The position numbers and the translations under genes were made by a program. The notes beneath the pieces were generated by a model. It saw nothing but the letters and a program-made list of their open reading frames with translations. It ran no database searches and was not told the DNA's origin. From Macrotrachela quadricornifera (taxonomy: Eukaryota > Rotifera > Eurotatoria > Philodinida > Philodinidae), in NCBI GenBank assembly GCA_022393335.1, contig JAJEKB010021001.1, positions 341,458 through 405,457 on the forward strand: 64,000 bases of DNA, read 5' to 3'. Positions 7,619 through 55,059 of this stretch are shown one piece after another (the first letter of the stretch is position 1; each line of letters opens with the position of its first letter).

Positions 7619-8587
7619 TTAATCCCGAGTCGAAGTGGCAGGTACGATCAAATTCTTTCGATTCATCCATTCTTTCATTTGTTTCTTGACTTTATTTGTC
7701 ACTTCGGGTAGACAACCAATACAGACGTATGGCAATAGAAGCATCAATAGCCAATATACATAGAAAAGATACACATCTTTTATATAGGTAACAGTTTGAG
7801 ACAATCCAATAAGCAAATCAATTACTTGTATCATAGTATAAGGTCCCATACAAACAAGATAAAGGCATGAAATCGATAATAATTGAAGAACCATTCGACG
7901 ATATTTACGCCATCGATTATTTTGATGCAATATTGTTCTCTTTCGTTTGACTACTCGAATAATAAGACATATAGAGAGTAATGCAATGAAAAATGTTGGA
8001 ATCCAACTATGAACAAAGAGATCGTAGAGTGAAATGAACGAATTATTAGTAAAACATGGATGACCACAAAGAGGTAAGTTAAAATTAAAATGTTTTTGGC
8101 AAGGATATATAAAGACGACTACGATATAAAATATAATCAGATAAATAATAATTAAAAATAAAGGTAAATAATGAGTAAATAAACGTCCTTTGGCATTACT
8201 GACTAGTTGATTATGAAAGACAAGGAGATGTCGTTCGAATGAAGCCCATAACATGAGTACATTAGCTTGACTATATAATAAATAATCACACCATTGCCAA
8301 ATGAGACAACTCATTATAGTTTGTGGTGTAACAATACCAATACGTAAATAGTGTAAAATACGTGGAACTTCAATAAGATTTGTCACCAAAGCTACAATAA
8401 GAAGTGCTAAAATAACATGTTGATGAATAGCAGTTCGAAGATTTCGATCAGTAATAAGATAGTAGACGAAAACAAAATTACAAAGTAGAGAAGGTAATTC
8501 AAGTACAAGTAAGATACCAAATTTACTTTTTCGTGCTAAAAACGTTTCCGAAAATGGTGACATTGACTGATTATGATGAGAGTTCAT
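7619..8587 (-). CDS. Rhodopsin-like 7TM receptor (bdelloid-type orphan GPCR)
   Basis: Single-exon receptor of 322 residues. Seven hydrophobic segments can be read, starting near residues 24-46 (TM1), 57-75, 91-115, 138-161, 190-210, 232-255 and 270-297. At the TM3 end the usual DRY is replaced by E-R-H (residues 118-120). C94 before TM3 can pair with a cysteine in the cysteine-containing second extracellular loop (YPC...LCGHPC). The N-terminus is short and has an NQS glycosylation site; the C-tail is short and basic. TM6 carries a CLYLVCMGPY-type segment. Receptors of this kind, loosely similar to peptide (FMRFamide-like) receptors, are strongly expanded in bdelloid rotifers; ligand and G protein cannot be inferred. 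The second receptor of this window (63.5-64 kb) is on the same strand. The ATG is chosen because the upstream minus strand shows no further hydrophobic or conserved sequence. Confidence 0.85.
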   Translation of the reverse strand: MNSHHNQSMSPFSETFLARKSKFGILLVLELPSLLCNFVFVYYLITDRNLRTAIHQHVILALLIVALVTNLIEVPRILHYLRIGIVTPQTIMSCLIWQWCDYLLYSQANVLMLWASFERHLLVFHNQLVSNAKGRLFTHYLPLFLIIIYLIIFYIVVVFIYPCQKHFNFNLPLCGHPCFTNNSFISLYDLFVHSWIPTFFIALLSICLIIRVVKRKRTILHQNNRWRKYRRMVLQLLSISCLYLVCMGPYTMIQVIDLLIGLSQTVTYIKDVYLFYVYWLLMLLLPYVCIGCLPEVTNKVKKQMKEWMNRKNLIVPATSTRD

Positions 8588-11229: not shown

Positions 11230-11690
11230 AATTAATATTCGTGATAATTTTCATTTTCTGTACTTTTTGTTTTTTGTTAATAATTTGTACGTTTATTCAT
11301 AAACGGAAATTTTCGATTTTACTCGATCATTTTCAACCAAATCACATAAACATAAGCACAACTATGAATTAGAGGATAAACTTTTTTAATATCTACATCA
11401 TGAACAAAACATGTTAAACTTTGGAATTCTTTAACAACTCGGTGATATTATTTGATTTTCTTTTCTATTAACAAGGAATTCTTCCATTACCTTGGCCTGA
11501 AATAGATACTCAACCATTAATGTTGTGTTCATGATGTAGATATAAAAAAGTTTGTCATCTATTTCATGTTTGTGTTTGTGTTATTTGGTTGTAAATCATC
11601 GTATAAGGTCGAATATTCTCCTTTTTCAATAAACACACGAAATATTAACAAAAACTACTCAAAATCAAAATTGTCTTCACTCTTTAAAAC
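11230..11690. repeat. Small palindrome at the outer end of peptide locus 1
   Basis: About 460 bp that fold on themselves around 11,460. The left half (GTTAATAATTTGTACGTTTA, then GGAAATTTTCGATTTTACTC) is the complement of the right half (CGAATATTCTCCTTTTTCAA, then AACACACGAAATATTAAC). TACATCATGAACAAAAC near 11,395 is mirrored by its complement near 11,525. Related sequence occurs at 14,880-14,950, 39,400-39,460 and 42,640-43,010, always at the outer side of a secreted-peptide gene. Confidence 0.6.
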
Positions 11691-12029
11691 TGAAAGCAAA
11701 TAGAGTTCTCACAAATATAAACTGGAATTCCATTTTCCAACATGCATATGTGTCTTGTTACTGTGTAAACCTATCTTCCCACGCGTTCGTCTTTCTAAAA
11801 TAAGAAAGACATAAAAAATAATATGCATTTAGTTCCTTTTTCTCTTTCTTCCTATTGAATCTATTTATATTTCTTTTATATTTGCCCCCGGAGTACGTCA
11901 CATACTTTCATGCCAATGCCAATTATCTCTCTATTAAAAGCAGTTGAAGGAACTGATTATGAAATTATGAGCCTATAATAAATGAAAAAGAAATAAAAAT
12001 ACAATTTTCAACTTCCGTTTCTCGTCTCA

Positions 12030-12037
12030 TATAAATA
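12030..12037 (+). promoter_or_regulatory. TATA box of secreted-peptide gene 1
   Basis: TATAAATA lies 82 bp before the ATG at 12119. The same box at nearly the same distance precedes all four copies (14517-14524 minus, 39833-39840 plus, 42278-42285 minus), within otherwise conserved upstream sequence. Confidence 0.6.
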
Positions 12038-12118
12038 AGATCGTAATGTCGTGAAAAATACACACAAATAAAAACTCTTTCTGCTACTACATACATACAT
12101 TCATTCGAATTATCAAAC

Positions 12119-12406
12119 ATGGTCAAAAATACAATAATAATGGTTGCTGTTGCTGTCATTCTCATGATGATGGTTTTTCATGTTAACATTGCGAATGGTC
12201 AAATATGGCAATGCTTAACCGGTTATACCAATTGCAACAATGGTTTCTGCTGTCCATCATCTCATCCGATTTGTGGAGGTATAGGTAGATGTTGTCCTTC
12301 AAGTTATCCCTATTATTATAATGGTCTCTGTTATCGTGGAACTGGAAAATCGGCTGGCAGCAATTCAAAAGTGGATTCGGTTTCAGGAGCCAGTGGTTCG
12401 GATTAA
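12119..12406 (+). CDS. Secreted 8-cysteine peptide, copy 1
   Basis: 95 residues, no intron. Residues 1-27 form a signal peptide (basic NVK start, hydrophobic VAVAVILMMMVF core, cleavage after ANG). The mature 68-residue chain has eight cysteines at 32, 39, 44, 45, 52, 58, 59 and 71, with two CCPSS blocks, a glycine-rich turn, a YPYYYNG segment and a Ser/Gly-rich tail. The spacing CC-x6-C-x5-CC recalls granulin or knottin folds, but it is not a canonical member. An extracellular structural, defence or signalling role is possible; I cannot assign one. AATAAA at 12468-12473 is the likely polyadenylation signal. The signal peptide pairs this copy with copy 4 (both have H21 and A25). Confidence 0.8.
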   Translation: MVKNTIIMVAVAVILMMMVFHVNIANGQIWQCLTGYTNCNNGFCCPSSHPICGGIGRCCPSSYPYYYNGLCYRGTGKSAGSNSKVDSVSGASGSD

Positions 12407-12467
12407 ATAACAGTTTCTTTTTGTTTTTGCTTGCTTATTCAATTCTATTGTGCTTTTCTTTCATTTC

Positions 12468-12473
12468 AATAAA
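12468..12473 (+). terminator. Polyadenylation signal of peptide gene 1
   Basis: AATAAA 62 bp after the stop codon, in a conserved 3' flank (TCATTTCAATAAA) shared by all four copies; the copy-3 equivalent is 40271-40276. Confidence 0.55.
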
Positions 12474-12919
12474 GTTAAGAGAATAAGAGTTCTGAACACC
12501 ACATCAGTACTATAAATGATCAGAAAGATTTCATAACGGATGTCACAGATTAGAAATGGTGACTAAGATGTTTTGACTCAATTCATCAACGAGAAATACA
12601 ATGTTTTACTATACACATCGAGTGAAGAATTCTGGGTCACTCTTTATAGACCTCTCAGTACTTTGTATATTTTTCATTTCTAATTCGACTTAGAAAAGAC
12701 TATGAGTTGATTGAGTTGGAAAAAGACTTTTACACTCGCACACCATCAAGATGATGAAAACGAAATTTTTTTATATCGACTTTTAGATATTTAGTGTATG
12801 AAGAAAAACAGAATGAGATTCTATTGATTTTAGTTGAGGGACGGATATGGTGAGAGCTTGAATATTCGTAGATTTTTGAAGAAATATATGAGTAATATTT
12901 CATTGTGTTTTACAGTGGA

Positions 12920-13640
12920 GGTGTTTGCCATGTACGCCCCGCAAATACGACATGTTCGGGTGAAATTAAAGCTCTCAACGTCAAATTAACACGATTAAAA
13001 TGTTAGCAATCCTTGACATGCCTAGAGGGAGATATTGAGATTTTAAGATATATGATATTTAGATATAAAAATGAATCAGAGAAGATTTTCTCAACTATTA
13101 TGAGGGCAAAGTATCGTATCGTTCAGGTCGATTATGGGATAGTAGAGATCCTCTTTTATGTGCTTCGAACAACACCATGTTTTGTCTTCATGACAGTAGA
13201 GCAAATTTTTTCAGTAGCTTATGGAGACGACGTTTTCCATTAGCCACTAAAAAATTTAATTCTACTATTCTAATGACGAAACATGGTGTTATTTGTGCCA
13301 ATCTTATGTTTATCAAGGATGCTCTCTCATATGACCTGACTACACCGTGTTTTGTCATTGGAATAGTAGAGTTAAATTTTCTAGTGATTAATAGAAAACG
13401 TCGTTTCCATAAGTTACAGCAAAAATTCACTCTACTATTTTAAAGATAAAACATGATGTCGTTCCGGTCATATAAAAGAGGATCCACACCATACCCTATA
13501 TTCGACCCGAGCAACACAATGTTTTGCCCTTATGATAGTTGAGAAAACCTTCTCTGATTCATTTTTATACCTTAGCATAATATATCTTACAATCTCAATG
13601 TTTTACTCTAGGGATACCAACGGCCGTTAATATTTTAATG
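12920..13640. repeat. Inverted core block of palindrome 1
   Basis: The centre is made of short inverted segments containing ACACCATGTTTTGTC and its complement ACAAAACATGGTGT, separated by tracts containing GAAAACGTCGTTTCC. Both strands are partly open because of the symmetry. The flanking motif GGGTGAAATTAAAGCTCTCA near 12,960 recurs inverted near 13,655 and again near 18,325, 40,690 and 41,370 in various states, which suggests that the core is itself a dispersed repeat. Confidence 0.55.
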
Positions 13641-14151
13641 ATGGTAGTTCGTCGTTGAGAGCTTTAATTTCACCCGAATATTTCGTATTTGTGAGGCGAA
13701 CATGACAAATATCTTCATTGTAAGATAGAATTAAATATTGCTCATATATTTCGTTAAACATCTACGAGTATGTACGCCTTCACCCTCACTTCACCTCCAT
13801 CCTCAGAATTTTGAGGATGCGAGTGTACAGGTCTTTTTTCAACTTAATCGATTCATAGCGTTTTCTATGTCGAATTAGAAATGAAAAATATACAAAGCAC
13901 TGAGAGGTCTATAAAGAGTGGCCCAGAATTCTTCACTCGATGTGTATAGTAAAATATTGTATTCCTCCTTTCCGAATTGAGTCAAGACATCTAAGACACC
14001 ATTTCTAATCTGTGACATCCGTTATGATGTCTTTCTTATCATTTATAGTACTGGTGTGGTGTTCAGAACTCTTATTCTCTTATTTTTATTGAAATGAAAG
14101 AAAAGCATAATAGAATTGAATAAGCAAGCAAAAGCAAAAAGTAACTGTTAT

Positions 14152-14439
14152 TTAATCCGAACCACTGGCTCCTGAAACCGAATCCACTTTTGAATTGCTG
14201 CCAGCCGATTTTCCAGTTCCACGATAACATAGACCATTATAATAATAGGGATAACTTGAAGGACAACATCTACCTATACCTCCACAGATCGGATGAGATG
14301 ATGGACAGCAGAAACCATTGTTGCAATTAGTATAACCGGTCAAGCATTGCCATATTTGACCATTTACAATGTTGACATTAAAAACCATCATCATGAGAAT
14401 GACAGCAACAGCAGCCATTATTATTGTATTTTTGACCAT
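14152..14439 (-). CDS. Secreted 8-cysteine peptide, copy 2
   Basis: Mirror-image partner of the 12119-12406 gene, 95 residues. The mature peptide is identical to that of copy 1. The signal peptide differs at position 9 (A for V), 21 (N for H) and 25 (V for A), and shares N21 and V25 with copy 3 rather than with its palindrome partner. TATA box at 14517-14524 (complement) and an AATAAA on the minus strand at 14085-14090 make it a complete transcription unit. Confidence 0.8.
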   Translation of the reverse strand: MVKNTIIMAAVAVILMMMVFNVNIVNGQIWQCLTGYTNCNNGFCCPSSHPICGGIGRCCPSSYPYYYNGLCYRGTGKSAGSNSKVDSVSGASGSD

Positions 14440-15041
14440 GTTTGATAATTTGAATGAATGTATGTATATAGTAGCAGGAAGAGTTGTTGTGTGTATTTTT
14501 CATGACACTACGATCTTATTTATATGAGACGAGAAGCGGAAGTTGGAAATTGTATTTTTATTTCTTTTTCATTTATTATGGGCCCATAAATTCGTAGTCA
14601 GTTCCTTCAACTATTTTTAATAGAGAGATAATTGACATTAATATAAAGCGTGTGACGTGCTCCGAGAGCAAATATAAAAGACATATAAATAGACGCAATA
14701 AGATGAAAGAGAAAAAGAAACTATTATTTTTATGTCTTTCTTATTTTTGGAAGAACGAATGCGTGGGAAGATAGGTTTATACAGTAACAAGATGCATATG
14801 CATGTTGGAAAATGAAGTTACATTTCATACTTTTTGAGAACTCAGTGTTTTTTAATTTTAAAAGATGATGAAAATTTTGATTTCGTATATTTATTTAAAA
14901 AGTGGAATTTTCGCTCTTATACGATAATTTTCAATCGATTAACACAAGTAATGCTTATCGCAACGGCTCGCTTAACTCTCGACTGAAGGATTGAGAGCAT
15001 TTATGCACTAATACATTTTATCGAGATAGTCGGTGGCAGTT

Positions 15042-18000
15042 AGGGTTGCCAAATCTCCTGAATTGATCAGGAGTCTCCTGGTTTTGTTGATTTTCTCCTG
15101 ACCAAAAATCTCCTGATTTCAGGAGCTGATTTTCGTAATTTTCTACTGATTTTAACTTTTTCTTCTGATCAATAATCAGCGACACCTGTTGTTAGTAAAA
15201 TGTTGGATATTATAGCCAATAACAAAATAAATTGTTTTTCGTTTTCTCCTCCCGTATGGTTTCTCAATAAAATCCAAAAATTTTATATAAATAATCGCTA
15301 AAGCTCAAATAATACATATATTCGTTTTTTGCTCAATGTCTTCTTCATCTCCATGTGAAATTATCGAAATATCCGATGAATTGTCATCATTAACATCATC
15401 ATTAGATAATGATTCGGTAAAACAATTTCGATCAACACCTGAACGAAATGCTATCTCTATTTCATCATCAACAACTCCAAGTCCAGTACTTGCCAAAAGA
15501 TTATCATCCAAATCAAATAAACGTTATTCATCTAAATTTAAAAAGGAATGGTTATCCAATTCTCATTTTTCGTCATTCTTACGGGAATGTAAAAGTGATG
15601 CAACAAAAGCCTTGTGTATCGTTTGTAACGTCCAGTTTTCTATTCAAAATAGTGGATTAGGTGATATTCATCATCATATTGAAACAAATAAACACAAACA
15701 AAGTACGAAAGCCGCTGAAGCTAATCCAAGTAAGGTTTATCATTCCGAACTATTCAGCTAAATTTTAAAAAAATTTTAGCAAAACCACTTGATACAACAT
15801 TTTATGTAACAACAAAAGAACTTAATCGTTTGTCTGCTGTAGAAGGAGCTATGGTTTTTCATTCTGTTAAACATTCGCATAGCTATATTTCTCAAGGTTG
15901 TACAATTGATATGATAAAAAATTGTTTTTCTGATTCTCATGCTGCAAAAAACATTAGTTGTGGCAAAACTAAAGTAATATTAATATTTTTTTTTAAATTA
16001 AATTATAACCATAATGTTTTAGGCACGTGAGATAGCTTGCAATGTACTTGCTCCATCACTTACAGATGAACTTGTTCGTGAATTGAAAAATGTTTCTTTT
16101 TTTTCCGTCTGCTATGATGCTTCGAACAAAGGAAGTGCTAAGATGCTTCCAGTTGCTGTACAGTTCTTCTCGAGGTTCGGTGTTCGACGTGGTATATTAG
16201 ATTTCATCGAACAAAGTGATGAATCAGCCGATGCTTTATTTAAAAATATTAAATATGTGATAGAATCACATGAATTAAAAGTTGAGCAATTAGCTTCACT
16301 CGGATCCGATAATACCAACGTAAATGTTGGCGATCATCATAGTGTTTTTTCGTTATTCGAAGAATTATCACCCAAAGTAGTAAAAGGTTAAAAAAGATTC
16401 TTATATCAAAACTTGTATCAATAACTTCTTTTTTTATTCACTTGATTTAGGAACATGTTACTGCCATGTTCTTCATAATTCAGTAAAACATGAAAATGGA
16501 CATTTATTATTCGATGTGGAATCAGCTCTTTTGAAAATATATTCTCATTTTTGTCGATCATCAGTTCGTGTTAAAGAATTGAAGAATTACTTTGATTTTG
16601 TTGAACAAGAACAAAAGGTAATTAATGATATTATGATTTTGGACCTTGTATCTATATATACATTTTACTTAGGTGATTCTGAAGCACATTAAGATCAGAT
16701 GGTTGAGTCTTTTACCTTCTATCGAACGTCTCATTGCTGTTCATCCAATTGTTAAAAGTTATTTTCTAAATCTTGAAGAAGGTGAATGCTCTAGTCTATT
16801 ATTGGAATTCTTTACATCACGTAAAAGTAATGCTCTCGATTTGAAAATGTACACCCTCATATGTTAATTTATCTCGTTTATATAGGTGAATGTACATTGT
16901 ACTTTTTAGCAAATGCTTTACCAGAGATACAAAATGCAAATTTGTTATTGCAACGAGAATACACCACCGGTGTTCATTTACATGGTATTATTTCAAATTT
17001 ACTTTGTAAACTAAAGAATCGTTTGAATGATGAGTTTTTTGGTTGTAAAGTTGCTCAATTGATTGAAGATTATCCAATTAAAGAAATCGAAGGTTTAAAT
17101 TCATCATTCAAATGTTTTATTCGTACGGTGATCGAAAACATCGAGAAATATTATAACAAATATAAATTATTTTATAAATCAATTTCCATTTTTGGTGAAC
17201 TCGAAATAGAAAAAATTGAATGGAAACACGTTCAACAATGTTGCACTTTTGTTGTTGATCAAACGATTGATCAGGACGATTTATACAAAGACTTTAACCA
17301 CATAAAATCAAAATATCTGGATTTAAAAAATAAATTTGGTGGAATTGCAAATCAGATAGAATCGTTTATTGTATCAAATCTAGGTTCATTGAAATATGAT
17401 GAACAGTCAATTAATCATGCAATTGAATTATACAACGATTGTGGTGTTACAGATAATATTGATCTTGACGAAGAAGAAGATGATGACTTTGATGAGAATC
17501 AACGAGATATACATATTTATAAACATAAAAAATCCCCTAACAACATTCGATCGGATCATTTATGGGCATTTTTATTAAATGGAGAAGATGTGCCTAATCT
17601 ACGAAAACTGATCGAATTCGTGTTTGCTATTCCTGCATCGAATGCCTACTGCGAATCGATCTTCAGCTTCATGAAATATCTCTGGAACAACAATCGAAAT
17701 CGAATGGCATACGAATTGGTTGGAGCAGAGCTGAAGATCCAAATGAATACCAATTTAACATGTAAAGCATTTTATGAATATCTTTTAACTAAACCCGATT
17801 TATTGAAAAAAATTCGATCATCAGATAAATATAGTCATGTTGCAAAGATCCGACGAATTGCTTGAAAATAATGATTATCTATTCTTCTACTTGATATGTT
17901 TTGATTTGTAAAGTAGCAACTAGTTAACTTTGATTTTCTATTTTTTTTCAAATGTTCTAATAATTATTTATGAAATAAATGTCGAGAAAAAAGTCTATCA

Positions 18001-32436: not shown

Positions 32437-33565
32437 ATGTCACGTTTTGTTCGATTGGCAAAACGAATCCAGACTTTCACGTATGTGTGCCTTCTTGTTT
32501 TCATCGCTTTGCTACTTATTGTCATTATTTCACAACGTGCTGATGTTTCCTATGAACTTATACCTGGTACATTGTCAAATCTCTCTCAATATGACAAATT
32601 CTGCTGGTCTCTCACTCGTCAAATGTTACGTGAACGTTCTTTTCCCATCTCTCAAGAGATAACTTCACGGAATAAATCAATACCCTATTCGTATAATTAT
32701 TGGCAATCGAGTTCACTCTTATCCCGTGCTCTTATTCCATGTGAACATGCTCTCTTTATTCATCTCTTATCAGTTCTCGTCGAACATGTCTTTAACAAAT
32801 ACAATATTTCATATATGATGATGGCTGGTACTCTAATTGGTATGTATCTTTAATTTAAAATAATTTTCTTTTGTGATTTCCAATTTGTTTTCTTTTATTT
32901 TTCATTCTAATAATTTTGTTTCGTCCGTCGCAGGCAGCTATACTTATCATGACATTATACCTTGGGATGATGATGTAGATTTAAGTGTAGCCATTACGGA
33001 CCGCCAACAGTTTCAATCAATTGTCAAATCTGAATTGTTATTGTCGCATTCAATTGGGCTCGTACAGATGTTCACTAAACGTGATTATGATAAAATCTTC
33101 TTTACATGGTGTCCACCTGCTGGTAGATATAAATGGCGTTTCCCATTCGTTGACATTTTTTATCATGGTGAAAATTCTACACATGTATGGCTAATTGGAA
33201 AACCAAGTAGTTGTCCAGTCCGTCGCCAAGATGTCTTCCCATTGGTACTTCGACCGCTCGGACCACTCTGGTTATTAGCACCACGAGAACCAGTAGCACA
33301 TTTTGAATCTCGATCAATGTCACGTATCGGTTGCTATGCATATTCATACTCTCACAAATATGAACGTTGGTTGTACGATACTACTCGAATTACTAACTGT
33401 TCAAGCCTTAAATCTGTCTACCCAGATGTTGAACGCCAATGTACACCTACTAAATGTGTCGAATATCTCAAATTGGACAATAAAACTATTCATACGATTA
33501 CATTCATTCCTGCCTATCGATCTTCTTTCTATGCAGAGAAAAACTCATCATATCGTGCATGCTAG
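32437..33565 (+). CDS. LicD / fukutin-like membrane-anchored transferase
   Basis: Two exons, 32437-32839 and 32934-33565, joined in phase 1 across a 94-bp intron (GTATGT...CAG); about 344 residues. Residues 13-32 form a single membrane anchor after a basic start (SRFVRLAKR), so the protein is type II with its body in the Golgi/ER lumen. The LicD signature follows: MMAGTLIGSYTYHDIIPWDD then DVDLSV, with the acidic cluster D146-D150 expected to bind metal in the nucleotidyltransferase-like fold. FFTWCPPAGRYKWRFPFVDI follows, as in this family. Animal relatives include fukutin and FKRP, which transfer ribitol phosphate to dystroglycan glycans; bacterial LicD transfers phosphocholine. Expanded in some invertebrates; substrate here unknown. 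No disruption seen. Confidence 0.85.
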
Positions 33566-39285: not shown

Positions 39286-39921
39286 ATATTGCCAGTCACT
39301 GTCTCGATAAAATGTATTAGTGCATAAATGCTCTCAATCCTTCAGTCGAGAGTTGAGCGAATCCTTGCAGCAAGCATTACTTGTGTTATTTGCTTGAAAC
39401 CGATCGTATAAGATCGAAAATTCTCCTTCCTGAATAAACATACAAAATATTAACAAAGACTATGCAAAATCAAAGTTTTCATTAGCCTTTAAACTTAAAA
39501 AAGAGAGAATTCTCACAAAATATAATTTCGTTTGCCAATACGCATCTGCATCTTGTTACTATAATTATAAAGCTATCTTCCCACACGTTCGTCTTTCAAT
39601 AATAAGAAAGACATAAAAAGTAATGTACATCTAGTTCCCTTTTTCTCTTTCTTCCTATTGCGTCTATTTATATTTCTTTTATATTTGCTCTCGGAGTACG
39701 TCACACGCTTTCATGTCAATGCCAATTATCTCTCTACTAAAAATAGTTGAAGGAACTGATTATGAAATTATGAGCCTATAATAAATGAAAAAGAAATAAA
39801 AATACAATTTCTAACTTCCGTTTCTCGTCTTATATAAATAAGATCGTAATGTCGTGAAAAATACACACACATAAAAACTCTTTCTGCTACTACATACATA
39901 CATTCATTCAAATTATCAAAC

Positions 39922-40209
39922 ATGGCCAAAAATACAATAACAATGTCTGCTGTTGCTGTTATTCTAATGATGATGGTTTTTAATGTCAACATTGTAAATG
40001 GTCAAATATGGCAATGCTTGTCGGGTTATACCAATTGCAACAATGGTTTCTGCTGTCCATCATCTCATCCAATTTGTGGAGGTATAGGTAGATGTTGTCC
40101 TTCGAGCTATCCCTATTATTATAATGGTCTCTGTTACCGTGGAACTGGAAAATCGGCTGGCAGCAATTCAAAAGTGGATTCGGTTTCAGGAGCCAGTGGT
40201 TCGGATTAA
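39922..40209 (+). CDS. Secreted 8-cysteine peptide, copy 3
   Basis: 95 residues with the same cysteine framework as copies 1, 2 and 4. The signal peptide begins MAKNTIT rather than MVKNTII and has S9, N21 and V25. The only mature-chain difference among all four copies is here: S34 in place of T34 (CLSGYT). TATA box at 39833-39840 and AATAAA at 40271-40276. N21 and V25 match copy 2. Confidence 0.8.
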   Translation: MAKNTITMSAVAVILMMMVFNVNIVNGQIWQCLSGYTNCNNGFCCPSSHPICGGIGRCCPSSYPYYYNGLCYRGTGKSAGSNSKVDSVSGASGSD

Positions 40210-41909
40210 ATAACAGTTTCTTTTTGTTTTTGCTTGCTTAATTAATTCTATTGTGCTTTTCTTTCATTTCAATAAAATTAAGAGAATAAGAGTTCTGAAC
40301 ACCACACCAATACTATAAATGATCAGAAAGACACCATAACGGATGTCATAGAGTAGAAATGGTGTCTTAGATGTCTTGACACAATTCATCAAGGAAGAAT
40401 ACAATATTTTACTTTGCACATCGAGTGAAGAATTCTGGGCCGTTCTTTATAGATTTCTCAGTGCTTGGCAAATTTTTCATTTCTAATTCGACATAGAAAA
40501 CGCTATGAATCGATTAACTTGAAAAAGGATCTGTACACTCTTGCATCCTCAAAATTCTGAGGATGGAGGTGAAGTGAGATTGGGGGCGTGCATATTCGTA
40601 GAGGTTTAACGAAATCTATGAACAATATTTAATTCTATCTTACAATGAAGATATTTGTCATATTCATCTCGCAAATACGAAATATTCGGGTGAAATTAAA
40701 GCTCTCAACGACGAACTACCATCATTAAAATATTAACGGCCGTTGGTATCCCTAGAGTGAAACATTGAGATTATAAGATATATTATGCTAAGGTATAAAA
40801 ATGAATCAGAGAAGGTTTTCTCAACTATCACAAGGGCAAAACATTGTGTTGCTCGGGTTGATTATAGGGTATGGTGTGGATCCTCTTTTATATGGCCGGA
40901 AAGACATCATGTTTTATCTTTAAAATAGTAGAGTGAATTTTTTCGGTAACTTATGGAAACGACGTTTTCTATTAATCACTAGAAAATTTAACTCTACTAT
41001 TCTAATGACAAAACATAGTGTTGTTTGGGTCATACGAAAGAGCATCCTTGATAACCATAAGATTGGCGCAAATAACACCATGTTTTGTCATTAGAATAGT
41101 AGAATTAAATTGTCTGCCGCTAATAGAAAACGTCGTTTCCACAACCTACAGCAGAAATTCACTCTACTATTTCAAAGATAAAACATGGTGTCGTTCCAGC
41201 CATATAAAAGAGAAGCCACACCGTACTCTATAATCGAGCCGAGCAACACAATGTTTTGCCCTTGTAATAGTTGAGAAAATCTTCTCTTATTCATTTCTAT
41301 ACCTAAACAGAATATATCTAAAAAATTTCAATATCTTCCTCTAGGTATCGAAGAGCCGTTAATATTTTAATCGAATATATGGTATTTTTTAGGCGACCAT
41401 GGCAAACACCTCCATTCTAAGATACTTATATTTCGTCAAAAATCTACGAATATCCACGCGTTCACTGATGCCCACCCTCCATCTAAAACCAATGGAATCT
41501 TATTCTATTTTTTTTCATACACTAAATATCTAAAAGTCGATAAAAAAAAATTTCTTTTTCATCATCTTGATGATGTGAGAGTATAAAGGTCTTTTTCCAA
41601 CTTAATCAACTCATAGCCTTTTCTATGTCAAATTAGAAATGAAAAATATACAAAGCACTGAGAGGTCTATAAAGAGTGGCCCAGAATTCTTCACTCGATG
41701 TGTATAGTAAAATATTGTATTCCTCCTTTCCGAATTGAGTCAAGACATCTAAGACACCATTTCTAATCTGTGACATCCGTTATGATGTCTTTCTTATCAT
41801 TTATAGTACTGGTGTGGTGTTCAGAACTCTTATTCTCTTATTTTTATTGAAATGAAAGAAAAGCACAATAGAATTGAATAAGCAAGCAAAAGCAAAAAGT
41901 AACTGTTAT

Positions 41910-42197
41910 TTAATCCGAACCACTAGCTCCTGAAACCGAATCCACTTTTGAATTGCTGCCAGCCGATTTTCCAGTTCCACGATAACAGAGACCATTATAA
42001 TAATAGGGATAACTTGAAGGACAACATCTACCTATACCTCCACAGATCGGATGAGATGATGGACAGCAGAAACCATTGTTACAATTGGTATAACCGGTTA
42101 AGCATTGCCATATTTGACCATTCGCAATGTTAACATGAAAAACCATCATCATTAGAATACCAGCAACAGCAGACATTATTATTGTATTTTTGACCAT
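41910..42197 (-). CDS. Secreted 8-cysteine peptide, copy 4
   Basis: 95 residues, mature chain identical to copies 1 and 2. The signal peptide has S9, G13 (inside the hydrophobic core), H21 and A25; the last two match copy 1. The minus-strand TATA box is at 42278-42285. Flanks up to about 42,700 mirror the upstream region of copy 3. Confidence 0.8.
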   Translation of the reverse strand: MVKNTIIMSAVAGILMMMVFHVNIANGQIWQCLTGYTNCNNGFCCPSSHPICGGIGRCCPSSYPYYYNGLCYRGTGKSAGSNSKVDSVSGASGSD

Positions 42198-42639
42198 GTT
42201 TGATAATTTGAATGAATGTATGTATGTAGTAGCAGAAAGAGTTGTTGTTTTGTGTATTTTTCACGACATTACGATCTTATTTATATAAGACGAGAAACGG
42301 AAGTTGAAAATTGTATTTTTATTTCTTTTTCATTTATTATAGGCTCATAATTTCATAATCAGTTCCTTCAACTGCTTTTAATAGAGAGATAATTGGCATT
42401 GGCATGAAAGCATGTGACGTACTCCGGGGGCAAATATAAAAGAAATATAAATGGACGCAATAGGAAGAAAGAGAAAAAGGAACTAGATGTACATTACTTT
42501 CTACGTCTTTCTTACTTTAGAAAAAGGAACGCGTGGGAAGATAGGTTTATAATTATAGTAACAAGACGTAGATGCGTATTGGCAAACGAAATTACATCTT
42601 AGACTTTGTGAAAATTCTGTCTCTTTTAATTTTGAAGGA

Positions 42640-43010
42640 CGATGAAAATTTTGATTTTGCATAGTCTTTGTTAATATTTTGTATGTTTATTGAAAAAGGA
42701 GAATTTTCGATCTAATGCGATTAAGTTTTGGAATTCTACAACAGTTTTGTGATAGTATTTGCTATATTAACAAGAAATTGTTTGATTATCATGACCTGCA
42801 ACTGATACTCAACTATTCTTTCTATTTGTTTCTTTAGTAAGAAAGCATCGAATTATCATATGTTATTGTGATTTCAAAAATTTATTATCTTTTTCGTGTT
42901 CGAATTTGTGTTATTTGGTTGAAAATGATCGTATAATAGCGACAATACCCGTTTTTGAATTAACACACAAAATATTAACAAAAACTACACAAAATCGAAA
43001 TTTTCGTAAA
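42640..43010. repeat. Small palindrome at the outer end of peptide locus 2
   Basis: GAAAATTTTGATTTTGCATA with GTTAATATTTTGTATGTTTA on the left is answered by AACACACAAAATATTAACAA and ACACAAAATCGAAATTTTCG on the right. The spacer (GGAATTCTACAAC...CTGATACTCAACTATT) resembles the spacer of the 11.2-11.7 kb palindrome in the same orientation, so this is a second copy of the same small element. Confidence 0.6.
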
Positions 43011-47935: not shown

Positions 47936-48088
47936 TTCTTTATTTCTTATTTATAAGCATATCACTTGAATTCGAATTTATTTTTCGACAGAAATCGATT
48001 GCTGAAAAGCAAAAGTTGAGACTAGCGGATTGATTTGTATCGTATACATATAGGTCAGTCTGTTTTTCGTTCGACTTACATCACATTT

Positions 48089-51000
48089 TTAGTATCTCTG
48101 AAATTTTTGTACTCGATTATTGCAATTGTCTGTTACATACAGATTCAGCTGAGAATCCAGTGCTACTCGGAAAGGACCACACAACCGGATAGAATCATTG
48201 CCAGGTAGGCCAGTGACACCAGCAATTGTTGTGCCGTTCTGTTGGCCAGCCAAAAAAAATTGGACGCGATTATTTTCCGTGTCAGCCACATATACATTGC
48301 CCATGAAATCAAGTGTGACACCACGAGGACGATTGAGTAGTGTCGATGTAGCGCCAGACACACAAGTGCTACTGCCTGCCACTACTGTCCAATGATTACC
48401 CCCCAGTGGCCAACGAACGATATTGTTGCAGGCTGAATTTGCGATGACAAGACTATTCGATGATGAGTCAAGGTAGATATCAGTAGGATCGAGTAACATT
48501 TTATTAATCGATACTCCTTGTTTGCCACCAGCAACTATAGTGCCTGACGAAGCACCCAATGCATAGCTGATAACACGATAATTTCCATAATCTGCTATGT
48601 AAAGCGTGCCCGTATTTGGATCACGTGTAATACCATAAGGTTGATTAAGCTGATTGTTCGCATTTCCAGCAACGCCTAAAAACACACTTATATACTATTT
48701 AACACAATTTAGGAAACATTTTTTTAATCCAAATCGGATGTCTTACATGTTCTCGATGTCAAAGAAATGAAGGGAGAGACAGAACAGTGTGTAGATTATT
48801 CAAAGACTCAACAGATAATGGTTGTTTTACTTCTCTCTGCAAGTTTTTTATTGAAATCATTGTTACTCTTTTTGACATTTCAGTTATCTTATTTCATACG
48901 ACAAATAATTTCGCTATTTGGTCAAAAAAGAAAGGATATTTCTTAGCCGAAACGAAAACAAAATCATGACAGTTCTATTCTGAATAAGAATAGGATTTTG
49001 AGTGAAATAATAGCTTCTCTCTTCTAGTTCGAATATTCAAAATCTGAGTGTAATCGCAAATCTATATATCATTCCTTTAAAGAATTTCTTACACACCAGT
49101 TCCGGCGATTGTATTACCCGACGATGAGCCATTAGACCACAGCTGAATTCTATCATTATTTGTATCTGCCACGTAAATGTTTTCATTCGCGTCAATATGA
49201 ACTGCTCTGGGATAATGTAATGAAATTGAATCTGAATCCGTTATACCATCACTCTGCCCGGCGACTGTTATGCCAGATGACGCGTTCATGGACCATTTTT
49301 GAATTCTATGATTAGCAACATCGGCAATATAGAGCGCATTAGATGAATCTAACGTCAGACCAGATGGAGAATTGAAGAGATTTGGAGATTTGCCGCTCAC
49401 ACCTGTAATTCCGGCAACCGTTACACCTGCTCTGTCCCAACGAAGTATTCCAATAACTAAAAAATATGCAATGCTAGCTTCGTATATATAAGCAAAAAAT
49501 AAATCTTATTTTTGATAGAATTAGCATACTCTTGTTCAATCAGTGATCGACAGCGAAGAAACAAAATTTTTCCATATCATTTAGATTATGCATTAATAAA
49601 TAGATTCCTTTATTCATGTGGGGTCAGACGCAAGGCACGACAAGCCCGGAAAAATCGAATGATTCACTTTATTGCATCATTCGTAGACAAGTTTTGTAAA
49701 ATATTTTGTCTTTGCGTCCTATCTACTGGTATCAGCGTTCACCGTTCCCTAACATTCCGCTCCGAAGAAACGGAAACGCATTCCATATTGCGTTTTTAAA
49801 TATTTTTTCGATGCATCACGATGTTTATACACTTATACTTATGATTCTATCTCAAATTGTTTTTTCGTTCCATGAACGTGGTTGAAATACTAACCTTAGC
49901 TCTCCAGACGTTGTGATACTCTGTAAAAAATAGGCGAAGAATAGCCAACCCTCAAAAAAGGTTCATAACGATAACATAAACCATTTTTTTCATTAACCTT
50001 GACAAGGGTTTGTTATACATTGTAAATTTACGTATCGCTGTACTGCTTTCTATGTTCATAAACTCTTCTTGAGTATAAGAATGCGATAAGCCCTTAGGCA
50101 AAAAGTTTGTTATTCTACGCTCTAAACACAATCGTAGAATAATAAACCATTTGTCTAAGCGTTTATTGTGCGAATATACTCAAGAAAGGTTTATGAACAC
50201 AGAATGCAGTACAAGGGTATATGAATTTGCAACGTATAACAAATTCTTGCCAAAGTTTATGAAACAAATGGCTTATGATAAGGTAGATTACGTTCATAAA
50301 CCTAAAAAAGTTTATTATTCTTCGCCTATTTTTTACAGTGTATCATCATATAATGCGACATAAGGGCTCGAGAATGCCTCCATATAAGGAAGTACCCTCG
50401 GGTCCTCATGTCGCATTATATGGAAGTACTTTTAGGTGTTCATATACTATTATTTGGGGATACCTTTTGGTCCTCATCTCCCAGTATAAGAACGCACCCT
50501 TAAGTCTTCATGCCCTACTATGCAGGAGTACCCTGAGAACCTGTATTCTGTAAACCTTCCCCGCCCGCTCCAGAATAAAAGCGTAATGGGTTTTTCTTTT
50601 TTTTTAAATTTTATAAGTTTGGGCATGGCCTTTTATTGCGGTGAGTGTTTTCCATGCTTTTGCAAAGATTTAATTAGCACACAAGTATAATAGATCTTAC
50701 ATACAATAAGTCAAAATTCCCATGTTTCATGAAGAATTCAGGTTTTTAAGAAATCCTATTTTTTGGTGAACGATTTGTGTACATTGCTGCAAAAGCTAAT
50801 ATAAATTTACATCAGTTTGTTTTTGCGCTGTAGATGGTTCTCTCACAGGAAAAGGTCTAACAGAACAGTATTATTCCATATATGAAATCTTTTCAATATT
50901 TTCTTAGACAACTATGCTTCATTAATGCGGATTGGTATATATTTTGCAACACTTAAAAGCCGTTAATTTTTTTGTTGATAGAAAATATGTAGAAAGGAAA

Positions 51001-53212
51001 GCAATTAAGACACAAACTAAACTACAATTAAACAATGAAAACTAATGAGCTAACTTATTAAGTCTCTAAACTGCTTGTTCTGTGCTCATTTTGAATTGAT
51101 GGGCTTACAATGTGCTTGGACTGTTATAGCCTTGAGTCTGGGCTTCTATTATTCGATAGACTTCCATTCTGTGAAGTGGTTTTAATAGAACATGGAGACC
51201 TAATTGTACCTTCATATAATAGTAAATGAAAATTCATGGGTGCCTTCATATAATAGGATATGAAGATCCGAGATACTTCTAAATGACAGAACATGAAGAC
51301 CTCAGAGTACTCTCATAGATATATGGTATATACTTTGAATTTTTTCGATTAAGTTAAGTTGTATCCCTCATATTTGCAATGTATCGCATATATTGTACGT
51401 ATCGTGAAGGTATCTGTTGTATCGTCACCGTATTCTCTGAATTGTATGGATTGTCCTGTATCTAGAGTAAACGGAATCCGCTTTTTTCTTTGCTTCTGGG
51501 ATCTACTACATTGTCTCAAAATTATTTTTGTAAAAATAAGGTTTATCATCAACCGGAATTAAAACGTCAATGACAATTTTTCCAATCCGATACATAATGC
51601 CGGACACCTTCATTTTTAACGTCGAAATGAAATGTACATATACAAATATTGCTTTCAAAAATCAAGAACGTGAACATACATTACCTCTGTTTGTGCTAAG
51701 CCTTGTGTAATTTATACTTCCACTATTGTTAGAACTTGATATTGGATAGTTTGATGTTTTATAGTGACTAAGAAGCAGAGCTAAAACGCATGCTATTATA
51801 AATAACATAATACTAGACACAATAATAATGAATCTACAATATCGATTTCTATAATATAATAGGTTATTGTTCTCCACGGACGCCACTGTTGAATCTATTA
51901 CATTCGAGATTACTGGAATCGTGTCCATGAAACCATTATCATCAGCAATTGGTTGATCCATTTTATTAGTTTTGGTGTTGATGTAATCTTCAAGATCTAA
52001 TATACCTTGATCTGTTGTATCTAATGTAATTTTCCACAGTTTATTCGTCTTGTCATAACCAATACGAACAATTTCGAATATACACCCAAGACTAAACAAA
52101 ACTTCTTTTTCATCTTTTATTTTGGAATAATGTGAAATGTCAGCAAATATAGCATTTTTCAAGTTACAATTCGTATGAATTTCAAATATTACTGATTCGT
52201 TCTGTTCTGATGTCTCTCCAGCGAATATTTTTGCGACTTCGAAATCGCTTGAGGCCGATAAAAATCCATTGAATGATATTAGTTTGTCTTTATTCTTTGT
52301 GATTATAGCAAAATCCGGTTTAGTCATATTTGCATACCCACGATATACTGTTAATGATTTATTCGATCGATTTTGTTGATGCAGTCGTTTAAGTTGTTCA
52401 CACAAATCTTCGATATAACATTGGAATGCAATTATTTTTGTTATATCTAGCGATCTAAGTGCCTCGTTCACTATTTTATAAGGAAAATCATTTTTTGTAT
52501 ACCAAAAAAGGGCATCTTCAGGCTTATACTTGATTCTAAATTCTTCAACGTTCTTTTTTTGTGCAGCATTATTCTCGTAATAAATCATACATTCAGCGAC
52601 CATTTTTTCTTTCATTCTTTCTTTGTTATCTGCTGAATATGGATAATCCATTAATACTCGTATTAAAAATCGATACCACGAAAATTCATTATGCTCGTCT
52701 GTTAAACTAAACATGGGTTTTAAATGTTGATCTGTTATAGAAACATCTGATGGTGAATGTAATTCATTTTTGATAGCCCGCTCTAATGAACTACTATCAG
52801 TACAAATTTCACACACTTTTCGACGATCTTTAAGCAAGTATTTATACTTATCGTAATCAGTACAAAATATAAATATTGATGAAATTTTCCGTAATGATCC
52901 TGGATGCAACTCAGGGAATATAGCTTCAGCGAATGCTCCCGACATGATAAGTATAAGTTTCCTCGTTTTAGAGATGCTTTTAATGCGTTCATCGAACGAG
53001 TCCTTTGTGTTGTATAACTCGTACTTAATGCCTTGTATGCTCTTAAACATGTTAATTGTATTTTTAGTGTCAGTTGATGTTGAATCCGTCGCGTTTTCAT
53101 CTAACCATATTAGGGTATAATAGCCGACATTGTTGGATATCGTCGAAGATTCTACGTCGAAGTCTTCATTTTTTAATTTCTGGTATTGATTTCTTTTAAT
53201 TTCCATCTTCAA
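48089..53212 (-). CDS. ADP-ribosyltransferase - transmembrane - NHL propeller fusion protein
   Basis: Three exons, 53212-51685, 49456-49097 and 48675-48089, both introns phase 1 with GT-AG ends; total 2475 nt, 824 residues. Residues 30-155: an alpha/beta receiver or TIR-like domain (YYTLIWLDE, RKLILIMSG, SSIFIFCTD). Residues 170-400: mono-ADP-ribosyltransferase of the R-S-E class, with YRG (R291), GFLSAS (about S319) and EKE-VLF (E368, E370), the acidic pair expected for arginine-directed transfer from NAD. Residues 461-481: one membrane helix after RNRYCR, giving an N-inside topology; two N-glycosylation sites follow. Residues 535-824: six NHL repeats (for example SGLTLDSSNALYIAD, RGVTLDFMGNVYVADTENNR), a complete six-bladed propeller. 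The architecture suggests an extracellular sensor with an intracellular enzyme. If the first intron is wrong, it is two genes: a membrane ART ending at TGA 51662-51664, and an NHL gene lacking its first exon. Confidence 0.7.
49919..50340. mobile_element. Foldback MITE inside intron 1 of the ART-NHL gene
   Basis: Ends CTCTGTAAAAAATAGGCGAA and the complement of TTCGCCTATTTTTTACAGTG, flanked by TA on each side (49917-49918, 50341-50342). The inside is an imperfect palindrome around 50,130 (AAGTTTGTTATTCTACG mirrored by CGTAGAATAATAAACCA). 422 bp, no coding capacity. Confidence 0.75.
50343..51340. mobile_element. Possible second foldback unit in the same intron, with inverted minisatellites
   Basis: 50,343-50,545 contains units such as CATATACTATTATTTGGGGA and GGAGTACCCTGAGAACC. 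51,195-51,330 contains their complements (CTTCATATAATAGGATATGA, AACATGAAGACCTCAGAGTA). These are the same minisatellite family and inverted layout as in the foldback element at 19.6 kb. The outer boundaries are not sharp. Confidence 0.4.
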
Positions 53213-53522
53213 CAGATACTATCGATCAAACATAATGCCGACATAGAAGTTCAATCTAATAGTAGTGCAATAATAGTCAAAGATAACCGATGAGAAAAAA
53301 AGTTATGATCCAGCATGTGCTCTTCAAAGAAAAAACTATTTTCGGGAAGTTTATTGCTAAGAAAATATTTGCTCTTTAACGAAGCGTGCTTATGTTTATA
53401 GAGATTCAAATCTTAGGAGCTCTACCATCGTTAAATTAGAAGTATGTAACAAGACTTCAGGAAAATTCGAAGAAGTCAAGAGACTGCAAAACCAAAATCT
53501 TCACTGATTTCTCGTTCATATA

Positions 53523-55057
53523 AGATGCCGGCAATGAGAATTTCGACTAAAAATTTATTTTTCGTCTTGTTTTTACATCATTTAATAGTTGATGAGCTAC
53601 TGATCATGAAAATCTACTTTTTAGTCTTAGCAAATGCTTCCTTCCGGCCAGAAAGTACAAAATACTCGAAAGAAGTCGTTTTTCTTTAAAAGCACATCTT
53701 TTTCCAAATGTGTGATCTATTTTGTTTCGTTCTTTTTCCAGCTCTTAAAAATATTTTTTAAGATTCAGCGTCAAAAGTTGTATATAGACAAGTTGTTAAA
53801 TCAGCTCTAGATCTAAAATCTTGATGGCAGTGGCGTTTCGAATCATGTCAAGTGCGTGATCTATAGATCGATTTTGTAAACCTATAGACTTTTTCTATTT
53901 AAGTGATTTAGGCAAATATTTTATCCCATTTGGCTCATTATATCATCTGTCAGCAAAAGTATGCATATATTTTTTTTCTTTTCTTTCCTTTGTCAAGAAT
54001 AGGCGATTTTATTACCCTGTTCGAAAAGTTCGCGAAGCTGCCCTTAAACTACGTCCAGGAGCCCATTCACCTGTACCATCGTATATAGCGCAAAATTTTA
54101 CTAAGAATTGCTCTCACTTGCACAGTTTGTGTTAATTTCTGTGCAAGAAAACAAAACACGTACTCAACACCATATTTAGGTGTGTTTCAGATAAATTATA
54201 AATCAAAAATCCAGCATCCAAGGAATGTTTTTTAGAAAACAGGTGACTAGTACCGAAATCACATTTGTGCGATGTATATGTACAACAGTGGAGAAGGTCC
54301 CTTGTGAGTATCTGCTGTTTGTTCAGCAATTTTGACCCTGTTCAGCCGGCTTCAGATGAAAATCTTTTCAAATAGTCGATTTTAATTTATCTGAAACACA
54401 CCTAAATATGGTGTTGAATACGTGTTTTGTTTTCTTTCAGAGAAATTAACACAAACTGTGCAAATGAGAGCAATTCTTAGTAGAATTTTGCGCTATATAC
54501 GATGGTACAGGTGAATGGGCTCCTGGACGTAGTTTAAGGGCAGCTTCGCGAACTTTTCGGACAGTATAATAAATTCGCTTTTTCTCGACTAAAGAAAGAA
54601 AAGAAAAAAATATATACATACTTTAGTGACAAATGACATGATGAGTCAAATGAGATAAAATATTTGTCTTGATCACTTACATAGGAAAACTATATAGGTT
54701 TACAAAATCGACTTATAGGTCACGCACTTGACGTGATTCGAAACGCCACTGCCATCAAGATTTTAGATCTAGAGCTGATTTAACAACTTGTTTATACACA
54801 ATCTTTGACGCTGAATCTCAAAAAATATTTTCAAGAGCTGGAAAAAAGAACGAAACAAAATATATGACATATTTGGAAAAAGATGTGCTTCTAAAGAAAA
54901 ACGACTTCTTTCGAGTATTTTGTACTTTCTGGCCGGAAGGAAGCATTTGCTAAGACTAAAAAGTAGATTTTCATGATCAGTAGCTCATCAACTATTAAAT
55001 GATGTAAAAACAAGACGAAAAATAAATTTTTAGTTGAAATTCCCATTACCGGCACCT
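53523..55057. mobile_element. 1.5-kb near-perfect palindromic element with TA target sites
   Basis: AGATGCCGGCAATGAGAATT at the left end and the complement of AATTCCCATTACCGGCACCT at the right end, each next to TA (53521-53522, 55058-55059). Arms of about 685 bp pair with few mismatches, e.g. AAATGCTTCCTTCCGGCCAG at 53,630 with its complement at 54,930, around a loop of about 160 bp (54,209-54,371). No transposase frame is present. The arm segment GTTCGCGAAGCTGCCCTTAA is mirrored exactly. Probably a non-autonomous Tc1/mariner-type element or foldback. Confidence 0.8.
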
Positions 55058-55059
55058 TA

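Follow-up and report, generated by a model that had tools for sequence, protein, structure and literature searches.

The DNA analysed here (the window, 64,000 nt) corresponds to positions 341458-405457 of contig C4456 in an assembly of the genome of the bdelloid rotifer Macrotrachela quadricornifera (G000; 450 Mb, 5695 contigs). Its minus strand carries a gene, confirmed by our analysis, that encodes in one chain an ADP-ribosyltransferase (ART), a single transmembrane (TM) helix and an NHL propeller (Table 1). Translation of the three exons yields 822 residues from 2469 nt, and both junctions are GT-AG and in phase 1; the donor of exon 1 reads AGA G/GTAATG, the slash marking the end of the exon. 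A first-pass annotation of the window had joined the same three segments into one open frame, with junction coordinates that proved exact; the start, however, lies six bases further in than was supposed (2469 nt, not 2475 nt).

Table 1. Features of the ART-TM-NHL gene, with positions in the window
Feature	Position	Strand	Remarks
Exon 1	51685..53206	-	507 codons + 1 nt; codes for everything from the receiver-like domain through the ART and the membrane helix to the juxtamembrane linker
Receiver-like (beta-alpha)5 domain	52742..53122	-	Residues 29-155; Ser-Gly at phospho-acceptor position
R-S-E ADP-ribosyltransferase domain	51998..52714	-	Residues 165-403; R289, S317, E366, E368
Single membrane helix	51770..51832	-	Residues 459-479; mean hydropathy 3.16
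Juxtamembrane linker	51685..51769	-	N-glycosylation sequons N493, N499; Cys pair of relatives lost
Intron 1	49457..51684	-	2228 nt, GT-AG, phase 1; separates TM part from propeller
Short inverted-repeat (MITE-like) element	49914..50345	.	Inside intron 1; also in the L039 copy
Exon 2	49097..49456	-	First closing strand, NHL repeats 1-2, start of repeat 3
Intron 2	48676..49096	-	421 nt, phase 1; within propeller
Exon 3	48089..48675	-	Remainder of six-repeat NHL propeller and stop codon
Candidate poly(A) signal	47977..47982	-	First AATAAA past NHL stop

The domain order proposed in the first-pass annotation, with a single membrane helix, is borne out by Pfam and by a hydropathy scan. Exon 1 matches PF01129 (ART; 39.5 bits, cut-off 22.3) and ADPrib_exo_Tox (35.2, cut-off 23.4), and PF01436 (NHL) scores above its cut-off in exon 2 and in exon 3; six NHL repeats can be counted by eye in the translation. 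The hydropathy scan finds one segment only (residues 459-479 of 822). No kinase family and no TPR family occurs among the Pfam matches of the protein up to E 1. NCBIfam gave sub-threshold matches only, a sequence search of exon 1 against the PDB gave no match up to E 1, and an Rfam scan of the window gave none.

ADP-ribosyltransferases of the R-S-E type are recognized by a catalytic arginine, an S-x-S motif and an E-x-E motif. The corresponding residues of the window protein are R289, S317-A-S319 and E366-K-E368, and over 58 aligned sequences the catalytic positions are occupied as follows: R in 57, S in 57, E366 in 54 and E368 in 57. An alanine stands after S317, giving SAS where STS is usual (Thr in 51 of the 58). 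The predicted structure confirms the ART fold, with vertebrate ART2.2 among the closest solved folds.

Exon 1 was compared with the whole M. quadricornifera assembly. Seven of the 86 matches listed are ART-TM loci (41-100% identity); the remaining matches listed (29-42%) end before the helix. For each of the six other ART-TM loci (L039-L044) 9.9 kb of DNA was taken. The seven loci represent four genes, since six of them form collinear pairs (window/L039, L040/L042 and L043/L044; ∼93–96% identical in DNA) and L041 is single. L039 repeats the window gene with both NHL exons, all exons being intact, whereas L040, L041 and L042 have a propeller of the P0003 type in one exon, 0.75-2.9 kb downstream, and L043 has a propeller of the P0123 type ∼6.3 kb downstream, the weakest pairing owing to this distance. 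The contig of L044 stops, by comparison with L043, about where the propeller should begin, and L044 was therefore dropped as a candidate counterexample lacking a propeller. The donor after the linker is G/GT in phase 1 in all seven loci, and a propeller lies downstream behind a phase-1 acceptor in each of the six that can be tested, a recurrence that supports reading the window segments as one gene. The junction argument draws on four genes with three types of propeller. The window, L039, L041, L043 and L044 have an open frame that begins with an ATG, and the catalytic Arg, Ser and both Glu are kept in the window and in L039-L044.

A second ART lineage of the same genome may likewise be linked to NHL propellers. 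At L048 (550-3126) and L049 (528-3461), ART-TPR exons are followed by an NHL exon on the same strand. The open frames on contigs C3979 and C4593 (861 and 977 residues) had been considered as intron-free ART-NHL fusions; in the DNA of these two loci they resolve into two exons, one coding for ART-TPR and the other for NHL, and the idea was rejected.

To place the gene among its relatives we combined three protein searches. Among the best 120 of 1785 matches to the whole protein, ART and NHL Pfam domains occur in one chain in Adineta steineri (P0003, P0009, P0017, P0112 and P0115) and in A. vaga (P0012). The search with exon 1 found 50 proteins, of which nine are close (P0003, P0009, P0014, P0089 and P0121-P0125); TPR domains are given for 39 of the 41 others. 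A profile search (best 120 of 217 matches) added members with diverged propellers from A. steineri and A. ricciae (P0168, P0169, P0177, P0178 and P0220). Two gene models are incomplete, through error or as isoforms: P0012 has no N-terminal domain, and P0170 (A. steineri) lacks the helix and most of the ART. Chimaeric gene models were considered as a source of the Adineta fusions; these models are not decisive alone, and the M. quadricornifera loci were used for that reason. In a 57-row ART tree, the window protein belongs to an 11-row ART-TM clade (support 100/100) that is embedded within the ART-TPR proteins. A separate 7-row ART clade contains P0112 and P0115, whose ART and NHL parts are likewise separated by a helix, alongside ART-TPR-NHL proteins, in which the hydropathy scan found no helix. 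Because P0112 and P0115 sit in another clade, the ART-TM-NHL order is likely to have originated in two or more lineages.

The predicted structure of a relative's propeller, that of P0003, is a closed six-bladed ring, and the propeller of mycobacterial PknD (PDB 1rwl) ranks 37th among its best 50 fold matches. Among the ectodomains of P0014, P0123, P0168 and others, that of P0014 is NHL-negative in Pfam, but profile comparison with both NHL alignments gives 97.8–98.0% probability; it is thus a diverged propeller. In a 40-row propeller tree, the window groups in a 21-row clade (100/99) with 20 NHL proteins that bear no listed ART domain. A helix was found in the five of these that were scanned (P0001, P0024, P0030, P0033 and P0046), and P0024 has the propeller nearest to that of the window by identity (55%). 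P0003, P0009 and P0012 have propellers only 29–32% identical to that of the window; a 14-row clade (100/98) unites them with the ART-TPR-NHL propellers and a small number of others. Joining the four ART-TM propellers in one group is rejected (p-AU 5e-8, an optimistic value as the group was named post hoc from the tree). These comparisons indicate that the window propeller is of other descent than the Adineta ART-TM propellers.

Exon 3 matches at least 152 sites in the M. quadricornifera genome, of which 150 candidates were scored. Three of them, L045-L047 (match ranks 3, 4 and 6), show the two-exon propeller of the window, its first strand being preceded, as judged by eye, by a phase-1 acceptor; L045 looks like a secreted protein. 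Since these NHL genes share both propeller exons and the acceptor phase with the window, three propeller types are found on one ART-TM chassis and were probably exchanged by exon shuffling. Most simply, both propeller exons would have moved behind the ART-TM exon via matching phase-1 introns. Three propeller states on a 25-row ART tree need at least two changes; the deep split between window+L039 and the rest of that tree has a support of only 83/80, so that any order of exchanges read from it would be tentative.

The N-terminal domain matches the receiver fold in a fold search with its predicted structure. In place of the phospho-acceptor Asp of receiver domains, Ser89-Gly90 follow strand 83-88 of the model (a position assigned by eye), and this pair is itself common in the alignment (S in 48 and G in 47 of 58 rows, with 6 gaps in each column). 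The first-pass annotation had allowed the domain a second NAD-related activity; a receiver-like fold with Ser-Gly instead of Asp lends this no support. Identification as a TIR domain or NADase was rejected, the domain having no Pfam match and being receiver-like by fold. VIA-align only re-examines Foldseek's own list, and the absence of a TIR row there carries no information.

Selection was estimated from the collinear pairs as the ratio of nonsynonymous to synonymous rates (dN/dS, Nei-Gojobori; binomial p). The window and L039 differ at 60 positions without indels over the 2469 coding nt, and their introns measure 2228 vs 2802 nt and 421 vs 425 nt. Over the whole coding sequence dN/dS is 0.34; it is 0.10 in the propeller (13 synonymous and 4 nonsynonymous differences, p 1e-5) and 0.33 in the ART (residues 161-415, p 0.03). 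With matched boundaries the ART gives 0.30 for window/L039 (p 0.02) and 0.32 for L043/L044 (p 0.01). The value for L040/L042 is 0.26 (p 0.002), over a codon range shifted by ∼52 codons, the frame opening inside the N-terminal domain; with the other cut used in that comparison, window/L039 gives 0.41 (p 0.06). Purifying selection is thus indicated on the ART and on the window propeller.

Several features bear on membrane topology. An internal helix without an N-terminal signal acts in type II proteins as a signal anchor, with its N side inside. The window protein has no N-terminal hydrophobic segment by the hydropathy scan, no dedicated signal-peptide predictor having been run, and 458 residues precede its helix. 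Basic residues flank the helix more densely on the N side than on the C side (3 vs 1 in the window, 5 vs 1 in P0003). A motif search finds a Cys pair just past the helix in 17 of the 21 relatives listed, 10 of these 17 having N-C-T; six of the seven M. quadricornifera loci carry a sequon there. The window linker keeps N-Y-T and has lost the Cys pair; L041 keeps the pair and has no sequon. On the strength of the absent N-terminal segment, the long N-terminal part, the basic-side bias and the Cys pair and sequons past the helix, we infer a type II orientation, which puts the propeller on the outer face and the ART within the cell, where NAD is plentiful. The receptor-like character suggested in the first-pass annotation agrees with these features, the propeller being on the C side.

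We favour, with moderate confidence, a reading of the gene product as a type II single-pass bdelloid receptor enzyme with its propeller outside and an arginine ART inside. In the mechanism that we consider plausible, the inner part would consist of a receiver-like domain without phospho-acceptor followed by an arginine-type mono-ADP-ribosyltransferase; one signal-anchor helix would connect it to the outer part, where a linker bearing glycans would lead to the six-bladed NHL propeller. Binding of a partner by the propeller would recruit, cluster or switch the inner enzyme, which would then ADP-ribosylate arginines of cytosolic proteins. The inner chassis would be kept as propellers are swapped between genes through phase-1 introns.

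Intron 1 is long and holds a repeat element, several AATAAA/ATTAAA motifs occur in it from 51186 on, and the members of the propeller group of the window have N-terminal parts of their own, all of which would suit two neighbouring genes, an ART-TM gene stopping at TGA 51662 and an NHL gene that starts from a separate first exon. This division, considered at the outset since the window propeller proved not to be sister to the Adineta ART propellers, was rejected on the intron phases and on the recurrence of the ART-TM-intron-propeller order in 6/6 testable loci, and we consider it extremely unlikely. No NHL start or TM exon was found in the intron (the 49.5-51.6 kb region where an NHL first exon would lie) among ORFs (open reading frames) of ≥60 residues or by tblastn, shorter exons being possible, and in-frame ATG codons appear in exon 2 only from where its second repeat begins. 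No AATAAA or ATTAAA lies within 462 nt past TGA 51662, against an AATAAA ∼106 nt past the NHL stop; the donor is kept in 7/7 loci, and the Adineta gene models join both halves. Given a single chain, it could in principle be turned the other way, with the ART extracellular as in vertebrate ART1-5 and the propeller cytosolic. The nearness of ART2.2 in fold would fit, vertebrate R-S-E ARTs being ecto-enzymes, and the NHL propellers of TRIM proteins are cytosolic. We regard such an arrangement as very unlikely in view of the basic-side bias and of the Cys pair and sequons past the helix; moreover, a signal peptide and a C-terminal glycosylphosphatidylinositol (GPI) signal mark the vertebrate ecto-ARTs, and here the sole hydrophobic segment in the hydropathy scan is internal.

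With the propeller outside, the inner part could still serve an adhesion or scaffold protein, anchoring or binding without enzymatic use of the ART. The SAS motif and the constraint between window and L039, strongest on the propeller, lean that way; however, the catalytic residues persist in all seven loci and ART dN/dS is 0.26-0.32 in three pairs, which makes this improbable to our minds. A greater, though still minor, likelihood attaches to a constitutive membrane-tethered ART, whose propeller would site the enzyme at a contact or compartment without switching it: the sequence bears no sign of allosteric coupling, and the stretches flanking the helix are modelled at low confidence. Against it, propeller swaps on a fixed chassis would resemble an exchange of recognition specificity.

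Other observations weigh against a receptor enzyme of the kind we favour. The N-terminal domain of window/L039 appears free of constraint (dN/dS 1.2-1.3): over 52727-53206 the two differ by 14 nonsynonymous and 3 synonymous changes (dN/dS 1.2), unlike the rest of the protein, which suggests relaxed or diversifying evolution. The N-terminal domain of L043/L044 shows no significant constraint either (0.62, p 0.30), nor do the L040/L042 propellers depart significantly below 1 (0.57, p 0.12). The basic-side bias is unclear for P0014 and P0123, the C-side sequon excess is modest and too small to decide topology, and the window and L039 have jointly lost the two Cys of the conserved pair, two being kept in 5/5 other M. 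quadricornifera loci. Finally, the open frame of L040 contains no ATG ahead of its N-terminal domain (800-1130), and L042 changes frame in that domain (715-1045). These two loci would therefore start elsewhere or be damaged at the 5' end; their ART, helix and propeller stay open despite this.

Beyond the single gene, a broader scheme is conceivable, though we advance it only tentatively: a family of bdelloid receptors built on one unvarying cytosolic ART chassis, which would receive interchangeable outside propellers from the NHL pool (at least 150 matches in this genome) by phase-1 exon shuffling, each receptor reading another outside signal (a microbe, a neighbour or an own secreted molecule) and answering by arginine ADP-ribosylation inside. 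If true, receptors would signal here through ADP-ribosylation rather than phosphorylation. Receptor enzymes with an inner kinase, phosphatase or cyclase are classical; to our knowledge, an arginine ADP-ribosyltransferase inside a single-pass animal receptor would be a new signalling output. The gene family physically links the expanded NHL and ART families of bdelloids, for whose use we found no description, and the conserved phase-1 junction would offer a clear natural case of exon shuffling that swaps recognition domains on an enzyme chassis.

Elsewhere in the window, an inverted repeat of ∼685 nt (53521-55059; arms 53521-54204 and 54378-55059, 93% alike) lies just upstream of the ART gene. 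Two palindromic blocks, 11598-15030 and 39298-42721, are ∼88–91% alike, and each holds two inverted copies of a gene for a small, Cys-rich protein resembling secreted ones (ORFs 12047 + and 14152 - in the first block, 39850 + and 41910 - in the second); the one ORF tested has no Pfam match. Pieces of a hAT-type transposase occupy 15291-17865, with Dimer_Tnp_hAT in a 344-residue ORF. A 322-residue ORF at 7619-8587 has a 7tm_1 match just below the curated cut-off (30.2 vs 30.5 bits), and an ORF at 32864-33565 has a sub-threshold match to LicD (21.6 vs 22.6 bits).

The first-pass annotation knew of no described system with this domain order. Relatives are already annotated in Adineta, as database entries that are unnamed or automatically named, so that the order is not unique to the window gene; a printed description of bdelloid ART-TM-NHL proteins was not found in the titles and abstract openings of open-licence literature. 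NHL is among the families expanded in A. vaga, for which roles in defence, signalling and cell-cell contact are suggested (PMC3846280), ADP-ribosylation is listed among processes under-expressed in spaceflight (PMC12220480), and PMC3482391 concerns a different domain.

The Adineta ART-TM-NHL proteins (P0003, P0009, P0012) and ART-TPR-TM-NHL proteins (P0112, P0115) have the order of the window in one chain, with propellers of another clade. Conversely, bdelloid NHL proteins without an ART (P0024, P0030, P0033) have propellers 52–55% identical to that of the window, behind a TM helix and other N-terminal parts, and L045-L047 share its exon layout. The N-terminal domain and the ART are shared with the bdelloid receiver-like, ART and TPR proteins among which the ART-TM clade is nested; these carry TPR repeats, and no helix was found in the two scanned (P0126, P0131), whereas the window protein has a TM helix and no TPR. 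The vertebrate arginine mono-ARTs (ART2.2, PDB 1gxy) share the ART fold, but are GPI-anchored or secreted ecto-enzymes without an NHL or receiver-like domain. PARP16/ARTD15 is a membrane-anchored ART whose catalytic domain faces the cytosol and whose lumenal tail is reported to act in sensing endoplasmic reticulum stress; it is tail-anchored, of PARP type and without a propeller. The closest parallel in wiring is mycobacterial PknD (kinase, TM helix and NHL propeller; PDB 1rwl and 1rwi), in which a cytosolic enzyme is connected by one TM helix to an outer propeller. The order of an enzyme, one TM helix and a six-bladed NHL propeller is present in the window chain, where the same orientation would apply on the topology argued above. 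The PknD propeller has been called a sensor domain, with the suggestion that it switches the kinase (PMC6107167). PknD is a bacterial Ser/Thr kinase whereas the inner enzyme of the rotifer protein is an ART, and we claim likeness of arrangement, not common descent.

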